Below are positions 40,860 through 48,357 of a DNA stretch of 64,000 nucleotides, in pieces. Numbering within the stretch: the first letter of the stretch is position 1; each line of letters begins with the position of its first letter. A program made the position numbers and the translations under genes. Origin of the DNA: Methylobacterium sp. AMS5 (GTDB lineage Bacteria; Pseudomonadota; Alphaproteobacteria; Rhizobiales; Beijerinckiaceae); the NCBI RefSeq assembly GCF_001542815.1, contig NZ_CP006992.1, positions 2,609,501-2,673,500 on the forward strand, written 5' to 3'. Below the pieces are notes generated by a model, which was given only the letters and a program-made list of their open reading frames with translations, did no database searches and was not told the DNA's origin.

Positions 40860-42005
40860 ATGCAGGGCCGTTCGATCGGATCGCCGCGGACCACCAAGAT
40901 CTCCTCTCACGCTCCTCGCAAGAGCGGGCGTCCCACCCCGTCCTCCGACGCCATCACCCTCAATTCCCGGACGGGGCGCGATCACGGCAGCCGCACGGCG
41001 CTGGTCCGCTCCATCCTTTCCATGACCCTGCTGGCCGGCGGCTTGAGCGCGGTTCTGCTCAATGCCGGCACCGATTTCGGCCGGGCCGAGGCTTCGACCA
41101 AGGTGTCCGACCTCGCCATGCCGAAGCCGCGCCTTCAGGCGCTCGCGCCCGAGATGCCGGTGTCGAGCGTGCTGGCCGCCTCCGCGAGCTTCCACCCCAT
41201 AGGCGATCTCGACACCGAACTCGGTGCCAACACGGTCGACCGCGTCTCCTACGACTTCCTGCTCTCGCAGACCTCGACCGGCGACCCGAACGACATCCTC
41301 GAATTCGGGCCGATGAAGATCCGCCGCCACCTCGTCCAGACGATCGTGAAGGCGGCTCAGGCGGTCCAGACCGATCCGGTCCTGCTCATGGCGGTGGCCG
41401 ACAAGGAGTCGAGCTTCATCACCGCCGTCCAGGCCAAGACCTCTTCGGCCACCGGCCTGTTCCAGTTCATCGAACGCACCTGGCTCGGCGTGATCCGCGA
41501 TTTCGGACCCCGATACGGATACGAGAAGGAGGCCGGCCTGATCGTCCCGGACGGCAACGACCGGCCGTCGATCCAGGATCAGGCCGAGCGCTCCCGCATT
41601 CTCGATCTGCGCCGCGACCCCTACCTCTCGGCCGTCATGGCCGGCGAGATGCTGAAGCGTGACGCCGGACGCATCGCCCTGAAGATCGGCCGCGAGCTGA
41701 CTCTCGGCGAGGTCTACCTCGCCCACTTCCTCGGGCCGGACGACGCCGAGAATTTCCTGTCCCGAGTGGTCGACAAGCCAACCGCCGCCGCCGCGACCCT
41801 GCTGCCGGGCCCGGCTCGGGCCAACCGGTCGATCTTCTTTGCCGGCACCACCGGCCGGGGCCGTCACCGCAAGCCCGCGAGCCTCTCGGTCGCGCAGGTG
41901 CACCAGAAGTTCGAGGCCATGATGAACGCCCGCGGCGACCGCTATCGCGACGTCCGCACCGTGGCCGGCCTCGTCGCGCTCGCCGACGCAGAGGCGGTTC
42001 AGTAG
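40860..42005 (+). CDS. Lytic transglycosylase (SLT domain), membrane-anchored
   Basis: 381 residues. N-terminal basic region then one hydrophobic segment (ALVRSILSMTLLAGGLSAVL), probably a signal anchor, then a linker and an SLT lysozyme-like domain. The catalytic Glu is in VADKESSFITAVQAKTSSAT and the following GLFQFIERTWLGVI is the SLT signature. The C-terminal ~80 residues are basic. It cleaves peptidoglycan glycan strands; with MtgA and the L,D-transpeptidase it belongs to cell-wall turnover. Confidence 0.88.
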   Translation: MQGRSIGSPRTTKISSHAPRKSGRPTPSSDAITLNSRTGRDHGSRTALVRSILSMTLLAGGLSAVLLNAGTDFGRAEASTKVSDLAMPKPRLQALAPEMPVSSVLAASASFHPIGDLDTELGANTVDRVSYDFLLSQTSTGDPNDILEFGPMKIRRHLVQTIVKAAQAVQTDPVLLMAVADKESSFITAVQAKTSSATGLFQFIERTWLGVIRDFGPRYGYEKEAGLIVPDGNDRPSIQDQAERSRILDLRRDPYLSAVMAGEMLKRDAGRIALKIGRELTLGEVYLAHFLGPDDAENFLSRVVDKPTAAAATLLPGPARANRSIFFAGTTGRGRHRKPASLSVAQVHQKFEAMMNARGDRYRDVRTVAGLVALADAEAVQ

Positions 42006-42133
42006 ACGTGCGGCCGCCCGCCGCGCGGCGGGCCCGCGACGGTGAAAATCTTCCTCCGACGCAACTGAGCGGCCCCCACCCGCTTTGTTGTGTTGTGGTG
42101 CGGCCCGGACGCGCAGGGGAGGATCGTTTCGCC

Positions 42134-42718
42134 TTGAACGACACGTTTCGAGACCGATCGCATCGGGGGCCCGCCGATGATCCGCTTCTGCCGAGCATGA
42201 AACTCGATCAGATCGGGCAGGCGCTCGCCTCCTGCTACGACAACCTCGTCGCAGAGGGCATTCCCGACCATCTCGCTGCCCTGGTTCGGCGGGTCGATGT
42301 CGCCGAACGCGCCGCGCCGACGAAGATCGAGCGTCCGGACGCCCGCATCGCCCTCGTGGTCGAGGACGAGCGCGAAACCCGCGAACTGGCCGAGAGCGTG
42401 CTGGAGGAGACCGAGATGCGCGTGATCGGCTGCGACAGCGCCGAGCGTGCCTTGAGCGTCCTGCAGGAGAGAGGCGGCGACGTCGCTCTGGTCTTCGCCG
42501 ATATCCGTCTCGCGGGGGCGATGGATGGGCTTCAGCTTGCCCGAGCCATCGCCACCCTCTGGCCGCGCACCCGGCTGGTCGTGACCTCCGGCGTCGAACC
42601 GGAACACGGCACGGCCTTGCCGGAGGGGGCGGTGTTCATCCCGAAGCCGTGGCGCGCCTTCGACGTGCTGGTCGAGGCCGAGCGCGCCGCCCGCGATCCG
42701 TCGCCCCCTGTCAGTTGA
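42134..42718 (+). CDS. NepR-like domain fused to a response-regulator receiver domain
   Basis: 194 residues from the TTG at 42134, which follows GGGGAGG; an ATG at 42197 is the alternative. The region KLDQIGQALASCYDNLVAEG, then IPDHLAALVRRVD, matches the two-helix core of NepR (IGxxLRxxYDxVVxExVPDRFxxLLxxLD), the anti-sigma factor of the alphaproteobacterial general stress response. The rest is a receiver domain: LVVEDERETRELAESVL, phospho-acceptor Asp about residue 123 in FADIRLAG, VVTSG, and the conserved Lys in FIPKPW. It could titrate PhyR or EcfG in a phosphorylation-dependent way (inference). No PhyR or EcfG gene is adjacent. Confidence 0.75.
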   Translation: MNDTFRDRSHRGPADDPLLPSMKLDQIGQALASCYDNLVAEGIPDHLAALVRRVDVAERAAPTKIERPDARIALVVEDERETRELAESVLEETEMRVIGCDSAERALSVLQERGGDVALVFADIRLAGAMDGLQLARAIATLWPRTRLVVTSGVEPEHGTALPEGAVFIPKPWRAFDVLVEAERAARDPSPPVS

Positions 42719-43765: not shown

Positions 43766-44437
43766 ATGAAGACCTTGGCATCTGTTCTCGCCGGCGTTGT
43801 CGGCGTCTGTGTTCTCACGATGGGCGCTGCAAACGCCGCCCCTTACGATCCGTTCGGCTCGGACGGCGACGATTATCAGGAGCAGTCGTCGCCGGGCGGC
43901 TGGCCTGTCTACGATCCCTACGCCACGCAGCGCGGCTCCAGCGCGCGAGGCTACGGCCAGGGATACGGAGAGGCCGAGGCCGCTCAAGCGCAGGTGGCGC
44001 GTATTCCCCGCGAAATCGTGGAGTACAATAGCCGTTACGCGCCGGGCACGATTGTCGTCTCCACGGCCGAGCGTCGTCTCTACTACGTGCTGCCGGGCGG
44101 GCAGGCCGTTCGTTACGGTGTCGGCGTCGGGCGTCCGGGCTTCACCTGGAGCGGCGTGAACAAGATCACCGCCAAGCGTGAATGGCCGGGCTGGACGCCT
44201 CCGGCGGCGATGATCGCCCGTCGTCCCGACCTGCCGCGCTATATGGCCGGCGGCATCGAAAACCCTCTCGGCGCCCGCGCGATGTATATCGGCAGGTCGG
44301 AATACCGGATCCACGGCTCCAACGAGCCGGACACGATCGGGCAGGCGGTATCTTCGGGCTGCATCCGCATGACCAATGAGGACGTCACCGACCTCTATTC
44401 CCGCGTGAAGGTGGGTGCCACCGTGATCGTCAACTGA
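43766..44437 (+). CDS. L,D-transpeptidase (YkuD/ErfK family)
   Basis: Periplasmic cross-linking or protein-anchoring enzyme of 223 residues. Signal peptide (MKTLASVLAGVVGVCVLTMG, then ANA). A Tyr/Gly/Ser-rich linker precedes the YkuD domain: GTIVVSTAERRLYYVLPGGQ, YRIHGSNEPDTIG and the catalytic Cys in SSGCIRM. Such Ldts are expanded in Rhizobiales. Followed by a strong hairpin at 44461. Confidence 0.94.
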   Translation: MKTLASVLAGVVGVCVLTMGAANAAPYDPFGSDGDDYQEQSSPGGWPVYDPYATQRGSSARGYGQGYGEAEAAQAQVARIPREIVEYNSRYAPGTIVVSTAERRLYYVLPGGQAVRYGVGVGRPGFTWSGVNKITAKREWPGWTPPAAMIARRPDLPRYMAGGIENPLGARAMYIGRSEYRIHGSNEPDTIGQAVSSGCIRMTNEDVTDLYSRVKVGATVIVN

Positions 44438-45762: not shown

Positions 45763-48357
45763 ATGCCCCGAACGACCGGCGACAGGGCGATGAAGGGGTT
45801 CATGACCAGGGTTCGGATGTCGGACCGCGTAGTGCAGGCTTCCTATCCGGGCGACGACGCGGCCCTTCGTGACGCGTTGGCGCGCTGGAAAGACGACGCA
45901 TCGATCGCGCCTCTCGTTCGCGAGGGCAGCGCTCTGCTCGTTCTCGATGGGGCGGCCGAGCGCATCCTCTACGCCGCCGGTGCGGCGCTCCCGCTGCGGG
46001 CGGGCGTCGCCGGTTCGGACGGCGCCGTCCTGCCGGCTCTTCGCCTGTCCGAGCAGATCCGCCGCGCCGGTGCCCTGGGCACGCGGCCGCGCATGGTCCG
46101 CTTGCGCTTCGATCCCCGCGGTGTGGCGCCGCCTGTGGTCGCCCTCGCCGCGCGGGTCGAGATGGACGAGGGGCATCCGGTCCTGCTCCTCGCACCGATC
46201 GGGCCGTTGCCGGCCTTGCGGCCGTTCGACATCGGGCCGGCCAAGGCCAGTCCACCCTCCGCGGAGGTGGGCCCGGATGTCGCGAAGCCCGAGGCTCCGT
46301 CTCGATCTCCGGCGCCGGAAGTGGAGACGGAAACGGAAACGGCGGAACTGCCGCTCCGTGTGATTTGGCGCAGCGACGCCGATGGCGTGCTGACCCATGT
46401 GTCGCGCACCCATCCCGACCTCGCCGAAGCCCTGTCCGGCCGCTCCTGGGCGATGCTCGCCGCGGACGGTGTGATCGAGGGCGCGGCGCTGACGGAAGCG
46501 CTCGCGGGCCGACGCACCTTTCGTGCCCTGCCGCTTCTCGTGCGCGGACGTGCCTACGAGCACGCGGTTGAGATCTCAGGCGCTCCTGCGGGCCGTTCGA
46601 CGGACCACTTCTCCGGGTTCGGCGGCTTCGCGATCCTCGGCGAGCGTCACGCGCGCGCGATGGAGAGTCCGGTCGAGGATGAGGAGGGCGGACCGGAGAA
46701 CCCGCAGGAGGAGGCCCCGGTCGATGAGAGCGAGGCGGAATCCGGCCTGTCGGTGAACGAGCATGCCGCCTTCCGCGAAGTCGCGCGCGTTCTCGGATTG
46801 CGGTTCGCGCCGGACGAAGACGGGGACGACGCGGCGCCGATGCCTGTGCGTCCCGAATCCGCACCGAGCGGCTCGGTGATGCCCTTCCCGATCCCGCAGG
46901 GCCGCTTCCCGGAGGCGGAGGCACGCGCGCGGCTCGCACTCACCGAGCTGCTCGAAAGCCTCCCCCTCGGTGTATTCGTCTACCGCGGCAGCGAGATGCT
47001 GTTCGCCAGCCGCACCTTCCTCGATCTCACCGGCTACGCGGATCTGCCGGCCCTGCGTCAGGCGGGCCTCGCGCATCTCTTCCGCGGCCTTCCGCCCAGG
47101 GATCGGGAGATCATCGGGCCGGTGCCCTTCGCGCGGCCGGAGGGCGGCACGGTGGCGCTCCTCGTCGATCGGGCCGGTCTCGTCTGGGAGGGGGCGGCGG
47201 CCGAGATCTGCCTTGCGCGAGCCATGCCGTCTGCCGGCGACATCCAACTCCCCGCCGTTCCGGCCAATGCCGCGCGGCTGCGGGCGGAGAAGGTGCTGGA
47301 CAGTCTGGAGGACGGCGTCGTCACGCTCGATGCCGAGGGCCGCGTCGTCGGCCTGAACCCGAGCGCTGCCGAACTCGTTCATGCCCATCCCAAGGAGATC
47401 GTGGGCGGGCGCTTCGCCGACCTGTTCGCGCCCGAGAGCCTGTCGGCGCTGGAGACGGCCGTCACCGCTTCCCGCCGCTCGGGGACGAGCGAGATCCACG
47501 GCGTGACCGTGCGCACCGGGGCGGCGGCGTTGCGCCTGCGTATCGCCCGGCTGCTCGGGGAGGATGCGCCGGGTTATTGCGCCAGCCTGCGCGAGATCCG
47601 CGACGAGGACGCGGCGCCTCCGGTTCCGGTCGCGGACGCCGCGCGGCGGAGCGAGCCTGAGGCGGAAGGCGCTTGGAAGGCCAACGCGCTCGCGCGGGTC
47701 AGCCGCGAGATCCGCCCTTCGCTCAACGCGATCCTCGGCCTCACCGACATGATGCTGTCCGACCGCTTCGATCGGGCGGATGCCGAGCGTCTCGAGGCCT
47801 ATTTGCGCGAAGTGCGCCTCTCCGGCGGCCGGATCGCCGGCCTGATCGACGACTTGCGCGATCTCGCGGAGATTCAGGCTGGCCGCGGCAAGCTCACCTT
47901 CGCCGACCTTGCGCTGAACGAGCTGGTCGCTTCGTGCATCGCCGCGCAGCAGCCTCAGGCTGCGCGCGATCGCATCGTCCTGCGCACCAGCCTCGCCCCC
48001 AACCTGCCGGCGATGAAAGCGGACGCGCGTTCGATCCGGCAGGCGGCCCTGACCGTGCTCGGAAACGCGATCCGCGTGACCGAGGCCGGTGGACAGGTGA
48101 TCGTCTCGACCACGCTCGCCGAGCAGGGAGAGGTCGCCCTTCGTGTGCGCGACACGGGCACCGGCATGACCGAAGACGAGCTGCTGAGCGCACTCGAGCC
48201 GTTCCGGGCCGATGTCGGACCCGCGGCGGAGGGCGACGAGAAGGGGTTCGGGCTGACGCTGACGAAGGCCCTCGTGGAAGCCAATCGCGGGCGCTTCCGC
48301 ATTACCAGCCGCAAGGACGAGGGCACCCTCGTCGAGATGCTGTTCCCGGCCGCCTGA
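45763..48357 (+). CDS. PdhS-like PAS sensor kinase lacking the phospho-acceptor His
   Basis: 864 residues from the ATG at 45763; later Met codons (45790, 45802) are possible starts. Order: unusual N-terminal region, acidic linker (about 300-340), two PAS-like segments (LLESLPLGVFVYRGSEMLFA and KVLDSLEDGVVTLDAEGRVV), a HisKA-like helix, and HATPase_c. The H-box reads VSREIRPSLNAILGLTDMML, with Arg at about position 648 where kinases have His. The ATP-binding domain looks intact: LGNAIRVTEAGG, VRDTGTGM and GFGLTLTKALVE. It resembles the PdhS/PleC/DivL cell-cycle kinase group, and DivL likewise lacks His. Confidence 0.85.
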   Translation: MPRTTGDRAMKGFMTRVRMSDRVVQASYPGDDAALRDALARWKDDASIAPLVREGSALLVLDGAAERILYAAGAALPLRAGVAGSDGAVLPALRLSEQIRRAGALGTRPRMVRLRFDPRGVAPPVVALAARVEMDEGHPVLLLAPIGPLPALRPFDIGPAKASPPSAEVGPDVAKPEAPSRSPAPEVETETETAELPLRVIWRSDADGVLTHVSRTHPDLAEALSGRSWAMLAADGVIEGAALTEALAGRRTFRALPLLVRGRAYEHAVEISGAPAGRSTDHFSGFGGFAILGERHARAMESPVEDEEGGPENPQEEAPVDESEAESGLSVNEHAAFREVARVLGLRFAPDEDGDDAAPMPVRPESAPSGSVMPFPIPQGRFPEAEARARLALTELLESLPLGVFVYRGSEMLFASRTFLDLTGYADLPALRQAGLAHLFRGLPPRDREIIGPVPFARPEGGTVALLVDRAGLVWEGAAAEICLARAMPSAGDIQLPAVPANAARLRAEKVLDSLEDGVVTLDAEGRVVGLNPSAAELVHAHPKEIVGGRFADLFAPESLSALETAVTASRRSGTSEIHGVTVRTGAAALRLRIARLLGEDAPGYCASLREIRDEDAAPPVPVADAARRSEPEAEGAWKANALARVSREIRPSLNAILGLTDMMLSDRFDRADAERLEAYLREVRLSGGRIAGLIDDLRDLAEIQAGRGKLTFADLALNELVASCIAAQQPQAARDRIVLRTSLAPNLPAMKADARSIRQAALTVLGNAIRVTEAGGQVIVSTTLAEQGEVALRVRDTGTGMTEDELLSALEPFRADVGPAAEGDEKGFGLTLTKALVEANRGRFRITSRKDEGTLVEMLFPAA

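Follow-up and report, generated by a model that had tools for sequence, protein, structure and literature searches.

How many phosphorylation points feed the general stress response of a Methylobacterium? In alphaproteobacteria this response is usually described with one such point, PhyR, while NepR, the brake on the response, is normally a small separate protein. The window analysed here is a whole stretch of 64,000 nucleotides from Methylobacterium sp. AMS5 (C1:2609501-2673500 of a 5.6 Mb genome), and a preliminary description of it had proposed that one gene joins a NepR-type segment to a receiver domain. A protein that joins NepR to a receiver, if conserved, would add a further such point, on the arm of the switch that faces PhyR. 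The questions are therefore whether the two parts are what they seem, whether selection has kept them together, and what such a protein would do.

The open reading frame at 42134..42718 (+) begins with TTG and codes for 194 aa, with the stop codon within these coordinates. Its NepR-type peptides are KLDQIGQALASCYDNLVAEG (aa 23-42) and IPDHLAALVRRVD (aa 43-55). We favour the TTG at 42134 over the in-frame ATG at 42197 because L18 and P20, which lie 5′ of that ATG, are conserved in 50 of 51 aligned fusion proteins, because position 22, the methionine of the ATG, is another residue in 31/51, and because the TTG start was seen in all 13 of the closest named relatives (L039-L051). The alignment comprises the window protein and 50 orthologues on named contigs, which belong to Methylorubrum and Methylobacterium; a receiver-only sequence from Roseburia (L089) was dropped. 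A smaller orthologue set (A1) holds 34 proteins, with the other 17 of the 51 left out. The positions of the features discussed below are collected in Table 1.

Table 1. Features of the fusion locus and of related loci, with the basis for each.
Feature	Position	Strand	Basis
NepR-like/receiver fusion gene	42134..42718	+	ORF translation, Pfam, alignment of 51
NepR-like segment, aa 24-57	42203..42304	+	PF18557 E 1.3e-4, hhalign, AlphaFold helices, dN/dS
Variable linker, aa 58-70	42305..42343	+	dN/dS, low pLDDT
Receiver domain, aa 71-187	42344..42694	+	PF00072 E 2e-12, Foldseek E 1e-8
Acidic pair E77 D78	42362..42367	+	51/51 invariant
Plausible phospho-acceptor D123	42500..42502	+	51/51 invariant; G in degenerate L151, L152, L195
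Conserved Thr T151	42584..42586	+	51/51 invariant
Conserved Lys K171	42644..42646	+	51/51 invariant
Terminator-like hairpin between transglycosylase gene and fusion gene	42067..42085	+	1 found, shuffles expect 0.4; consensus match only
Neighbouring lytic transglycosylase (SLT) gene	40860..42005	+	PF01464; conserved synteny
Decayed-receiver fusion copies	L151:4697-5314 (G012), L152:3632-4252 (G024), L195:1329-1952 (G020)		syntenic, NepR part kept
96-aa ORF, NepR-like by eye	L188:3729-4019, own genome about C1:2676728	-	gene count

The Pfam NepR family matches aa 25-58 of the fusion protein at E 1.3e-4 (22.0 bits, under the gathering cut-off of 25.7), and Response_reg (PF00072) matches aa 74-174 at E 2e-12 (47.7 bits against a cut-off of 30.2). 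The HMM check named in the preliminary description thus returned both families, the first of them below its curated threshold. When the whole genome was searched with PF18557, the fused segment scored 24.8 bits and ranked fourth, below NepR, the N-terminal extension of an EcfG and a NepR paralogue. All 34 orthologues tested matched both families at E<=0.01, with a top NepR E of 3.7e-6.

The fused segments of the 51 proteins were made into a profile (A2), which aligned by hhalign with a profile of 31 NepRs (A3) at probability 97, E 1.2e-10 and score 46.1, against at most 17.2 for 150 column shuffles and 9.4 for the reversed profile. Because 14 of the 31 A3 rows had been retrieved with A2, which makes the comparison partly circular, it was repeated on the 17 NepRs that came from PF18557 searches alone. 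This result was weaker than with 31 rows (probability 92.9, E 3.6e-7, score 31.9), and none of 150 column shuffles was as good (top score 20.6). The A3 profile retrieves the solved NepR structures 3t0y, 5uxx, 4qic and 2lfw. In a search of 149 family genomes with A2, short NepR ORFs from other genera came below the same-genus fusions, and the 24 weak-match loci inspected by eye consisted of 20 free NepR-like ORFs, one fusion (L124) and three loci out of register. A contrary result is that, against PDB sequences, pieces of ATP-citrate synthase (E 4e-4) outrank NepR 3t0y (E 0.18) as matches to A2; the profile is narrow. Judged by the Pfam HMM, the profile comparison and the shuffles, the N-terminal segment is homologous to canonical NepRs.

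The AlphaFold model places helices at aa 24-40 and 46-59, that is, two helices in NepR positions, at low confidence (pLDDT 48-61 in 10-residue blocks). The linker at aa 57-67 falls below 50, and the mean pLDDT of the whole model is 76. The joining of a NepR-type segment to a receiver is therefore borne out by HMM, profile comparison, conservation and a low-confidence helix prediction; neither of the contrary outcomes named beforehand, no significant NepR HMM match or an N-terminus unlike the NepR helices, occurred.

The receiver has as its top Foldseek match the NtrX receiver 4d6y (E 1e-8). Its catalytic set of E77 and D78, D123, T151 and K171 is unchanged across all 51 proteins, and the plausible phospho-acceptor Asp that had been pointed out, D123, is thus intact. 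The AlphaFold model of the receiver is without helix alpha-4 between the last two strands (42584-42646, aa 151-171). The PhyR sigma-like domain (PF22029/PF22233) gave no match on the fusion protein at E<=10, whereas the PhyR of the same genome matches both families. In a receiver tree the 11 fusion orthologues included group together (87/94); deep branching is not resolved in that tree, PhyR forms a very long branch, and the degenerate copies discussed below fall outside the group of the other orthologues. Single-domain receiver paralogues that have no NepR-like segment are present in the same genome (L145).

Which part of the protein is under the stronger constraint? By simple pairwise counts, in which synonymous sites are partly saturated, the 14 closest proteins have a dN/dS of 0.064 in the NepR part, 0.134 in the receiver, 0.49 in the linker and 0.37 over the first 21 residues; the corresponding values for the other 37 proteins are 0.20, 0.25, 0.97 and 0.73. 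The lowest dN/dS, and hence the strongest constraint within the fusion protein, belongs to the NepR part. Its invariant residues in the 51 proteins include L24, D25, I27, G28, L31, A32, Y35, D36, L38, E41, G42, P44, L47, A48, L50 and V54, and the hydrophobic NepR positions are retained. The R of LRxxY, found in 74% of canonical NepRs, is A in 51/51 fusions, and the P of EPxP (P42), found in 90%, is G in 51/51. The interface has therefore changed.

A study of Sphingomonas melonis NepR indicates how these positions matter: alanine at L32 or Y36, or at their NepR2 equivalents, lowers activity, and alanine at R33 leaves it unreduced (PMC6599016). By motif, L32 and Y36 correspond to L31 and Y35 of the fusion, which are invariant in 51/51, and the R-to-A change seen in 51/51 is the change that was tolerated in S. 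melonis NepR.

Most of the same-genus genomes searched carry the fusion. Among the matches listed, a match at E<=1.2e-60 spanning both parts was found in at least 32 of 37 same-genus genomes (our own plus 36). Three genomes (G012, G020 and G024) carry a divergent fusion copy, the match in G035, which begins at aa 28, turned out to be a second fusion lineage, and G015 gave receiver matches alone among the matches listed. An order-wide search covered 297 genomes at E<=1e-18, with at most 10 candidates scored per genome. Alignments that extended into the first 30 profile positions were confined to the 6 same-genus genomes that had any match, and G305 among these represents the second lineage; in the other 36 genomes with matches the alignment starts at position 43 or later, i.e. 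essentially in the receiver. One fusion from another genus was found in the 149 family genomes searched (G275; L124/L202), with D78 replaced by P and G28 by F.

The surroundings of the gene are also conserved. In 50/50 orthologous loci the gene immediately upstream is the transglycosylase gene, on the same strand and with 100-328 bases to the called start (gene calls are those of our own simple caller). A relative of the downstream gene at 43820-44437, L,D-transpeptidase-like by eye, was present in 44/50 loci as fetched. Neither phyR nor ecfG is among the neighbours of the fusion gene within the window. The sequence gives no hint of control by the general stress response, because an EcfG-type promoter (GAAC-N16,17-SGTT) is absent from the + strand between 41401 and 42300. 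Within the window, then, the fusion does not have the usual NepR arrangement of a small free protein encoded with phyR/ecfG and an EcfG-type promoter.

The nearest kinase-like gene lies 3 kb downstream of the fusion (45790-48357, +) and encodes PAS, HisKA and HATPase parts. An Arg occupies the expected position of the H-box His (SREIRPSLNAI). Among 29 orthologous fragments, 7 have a readable motif and 6 of these carry R; a 47% relative carries H. The gene product is possibly a pseudokinase.

The divergent copies of G012, G020 and G024 separate the two parts of the protein. All three (L151, L195 and L152, respectively) stand behind the same transglycosylase gene as the fusion. Their receivers have D123 replaced by G, T151 by A and E77 by G, with K171 in a gap, and their N-terminal parts retain L31, Y35, P44, L47 and L50. 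Pfam lists NepR for L151 and L152 at E 0.0027 and 0.0012, and does not list the receiver for either at E<=1. Since the NepR part persists in three syntenic copies whose receiver chemistry is gone, it matters in itself. The same copies argue against an obligatory or universal phospho-switch, because they combine a retained NepR part with a receiver devoid of its Asp.

There are several other NepR modules in this genome: a NepR near phyR, a NepR paralogue encoded by a frame of 97 aa (L003), and NepR-like extensions on EcfG proteins. Shortly beyond the right edge of the window, an EcfG-type sigma factor (C1:2675175-2676300) with a PhyR_sigma2 match has a weak N-terminal NepR match (E 0.11). NepR-like N-terminal extensions of Methylobacterium EcfG are already described (PMC4814048). 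Two further kinds were met here, a second receiver lineage with a NepR-like N-terminus and a hybrid kinase with a NepR-like tail.

The second receiver lineage (A5, 6 proteins) aligns with the NepR profile by hhalign at E 4.5e-7, and at 2.8e-7 with the 17 independent rows; 0/150 shuffles were as good in either comparison. Pfam NepR, run on four of these proteins, gave E 0.012 and 0.018 for L150 and L161 and nothing for L191 and L192. L193 is too degenerate for judgement. At L153:3335-3925 (-) a 63-aa ORF, on which Pfam NepR had no match, immediately precedes a receiver-like ORF in which, by eye, usual residues are missing; the pair may be a split form of the second lineage.

The hybrid histidine kinase has 803 aa (L219:1403-3814, which is C1:4545902-4548313 of our own genome, outside the window) and the layout PAS-PAS-HisKA-HATPase-REC-REC-NepR-like tail, assigned by eye except for the matches to the C-terminal receiver and to NepR. 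The idea that the tail (L005, 16 bits) is simply the last helix of the receiver was dropped: two of six orthologous tails pass the Pfam NepR cut-off (L212 with 26.5 bits and L215 with 26.2), and the others fall under it (L217, 25.6; L213, 24.7; L216, 14.8; and that of our own genome, L207, 14.0, at E 0.04). The tail profile aligns by hhalign at E 3.5e-11 with the NepRs and at 1.6e-11 with the 17 independent rows (0/150 shuffles in both). The first helix of the tail may double as the last helix of the receiver. An 81-residue query made of the receiver end and the tail gave matches over 80-81 residues in at least 21 of 25 same-genus genomes, among the matches listed. Because a hybrid kinase of the same genome ends REC-REC-NepR-like, NepR modules have come together with receivers on at least two occasions.

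Has the fusion protein already been studied in M. extorquens AM1? According to Francez-Charlot et al. 2016 (PMC4814048), AM1 has three NepR homologues; META1p1275 and META2p0735 co-precipitated PhyR, META1p2700 did not, and none of the three bound an EcfG in two-hybrid assays. NepR itself had only EcfG1 and EcfG5 as two-hybrid partners, and the remaining EcfGs, notably EcfG2, should be controlled by PhyR via a mechanism that the study calls yet to be identified. The paper also mentions a putative EcfG-type promoter ahead of META1p2700.

The position of the fusion had first made identity with META1p2700 seem likely, and this was ruled out by counting genes, on the assumption of collinearity with AM1 and with our simple caller. 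The gene ccmC, META1p2732 in AM1 (PMC7391723), lies at 2710 kb in this genome, and 32 called-gene positions back from it stands a free 96-aa ORF at C1:2676.7 kb, near an ecfG. This ORF is likely the orthologue of META1p2700. It is separated from the fusion gene by 21 called genes, so that the fusion locus would, given collinearity, fall near META1p2678 in AM1. The numbering is supported by the second called gene after ccmC, which looks like ccmG by eye (ccmG is META1p2734 in AM1); collinearity is imperfect, as ccmB is META1p2825 in AM1 yet lies just 20 kb past ccmC here. PF18557 had no match on the 96-aa ORF, and a strict scan for an EcfG-type promoter upstream of it found none; a one-mismatch site, GCAAC-N16-CGTT, is visible there by eye. 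Given a collinear gene order, the proteins tested in AM1 did not include the fusion, because its gene count differs from that of META1p2700. No description of a NepR-receiver fusion was found in the literature searched, mainly open-licence papers. That a NepR homologue need not bind either partner is shown by META1p2700, which bound neither PhyR nor EcfG.

What might the fusion protein do? The reading we put first, with somewhat less than even confidence, is that it may be a NepR2-type ligand of PhyR tied to a receiver input, acting as a graded brake or adaptor. A PhyR-directed, NepR2-like ligand is suggested because the L and Y are kept in 51/51, because the R-to-A change is a tolerated one, and because there are precedents: NepR2 of S. 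melonis binds PhyR and damps the response (PMC6599016), META2p0735 of M. extorquens does likewise, and for both proteins PhyR binding is reported with EcfG binding undetected (PMC6599016, PMC4814048). What would speak for the functional claim is thus the invariance of function-relevant NepR residues together with the existence of PhyR-binding NepR paralogues. Against it, the gene stands behind a lytic transglycosylase gene and not beside phyR/ecfG, and the nearest kinase-like gene is without the H-box His.

In such a mechanism the two helices would dock on a sigma-like fold, most likely that of PhyR, and compete with NepR, so that the general stress response would be dampened or tuned. The receiver would add a second phosphorylation input from a histidine kinase, and phosphorylation might alter the availability of the NepR helices or join kinase and PhyR. 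The likely output would be a graded brake or adaptor rather than a plain anti-sigma factor. The preliminary description had suggested either phosphorylation-controlled NepR activity or sequestration of PhyR. Its domain claim stands; either of these functions remains putative.

There are three other explanations to weigh. In an unlikely one, the protein is an adaptor between a kinase and PhyR: the helices would hold PhyR, the receiver would dock on the kinase or pass phosphate, and PhyR phosphorylation would be promoted or routed. This model is kept alive by the report, in PMC12148442, that in some systems NepR binds unphosphorylated PhyR, cooperatively with phosphorylation. The NepR-like tail of the same-genus hybrid kinase would fit recruitment of PhyR to a kinase, but no intact kinase gene adjoins the fusion in the window, the receiver chemistry is lost in three copies, and the hybrid kinase is by its H-box (by eye) of the HisKA and not the HWE type. 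An HWE-type kinase is usual for PhyR.

We think it quite unlikely that the segment is a NepR relic with an unrelated role, such as holding its own receiver or another partner, which would make the protein in effect an orphan single-domain response regulator. A relic would agree with a sub-threshold Pfam NepR score, with the changes at R32 and P42, with helices modelled at low confidence and with the segment-free single-domain paralogues; it is harder to square with a segment that is more constrained than the receiver, persists where the receiver has decayed and keeps two NepR-function residues invariant. Improbable, finally, is a direct phospho-gated anti-sigma factor for an EcfG paralogue, several of which are without a known NepR partner: the retained hydrophobic positions would suit this, as would the EcfGs other than EcfG1 and EcfG5, which lack a known regulator because AM1 NepR bound only those two, but in the same study (PMC4814048) three AM1 NepR homologues bound no EcfG, the NepR-like extensions of EcfG may already occupy the surface, and most EcfG paralogues, unlike the fusion, are not widespread across the genus.

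A PhyR ligand with a receiver input thus remains our preferred reading. Conservation of the fusion points to a possible direct link between the stress switch and a further signalling input, and the fusion could explain part of the unaccounted EcfG regulation of Methylobacterium. A broader idea, which we consider possible but doubtful, is that in Methylobacterium the NepR peptide serves as a portable docking tag, found on sigma factors, on receivers in two lineages and on the tail of a hybrid kinase, with the fusion as a phospho-gated NepR. If this were true, the general-stress partner switch would be physically wired to other phosphorelays. The fusion would also define a new class of signalling protein, PhyR being no longer the only response regulator of the switch and the anti-sigma side being one as well.

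The fusion can be set beside several known systems. With NepR (PF18557) it shares, by profile homology, the two-helix segment IGxxLxxxYDxxxxExxPxxLxxLVxxV; NepR, however, is a free protein of 60-100 aa, whereas the fused segment is joined to a receiver, has A and G in place of R32 and P42, and lies away from the phyR locus with no EcfG-type promoter found. The Methylobacterium EcfG with a NepR-like extension (PMC4814048) also bears an N-terminal NepR-like module on another regulator, there a sigma factor and here a receiver. NepR2 of S. melonis Fr1 and MexAM1_META2p0735 resemble the fusion as extra NepR copies and in having the L and the aromatic residue on which NepR and NepR2 depend. The available parts of their descriptions mention no receiver, whereas the fusion has a phosphorylation input attached and its PhyR binding is hypothetical. 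Single-domain regulators that feed the stress response, such as MrrA, SdrG and LovR, likewise have, by description, a receiver without a DNA-binding output; the fusion differs from them in carrying a NepR-like segment. PhyR, like the fusion, combines a partner-switch module with a receiver. The difference is that PhyR carries a sigma mimic, while the fusion has a relative of the ligand that this mimic binds.
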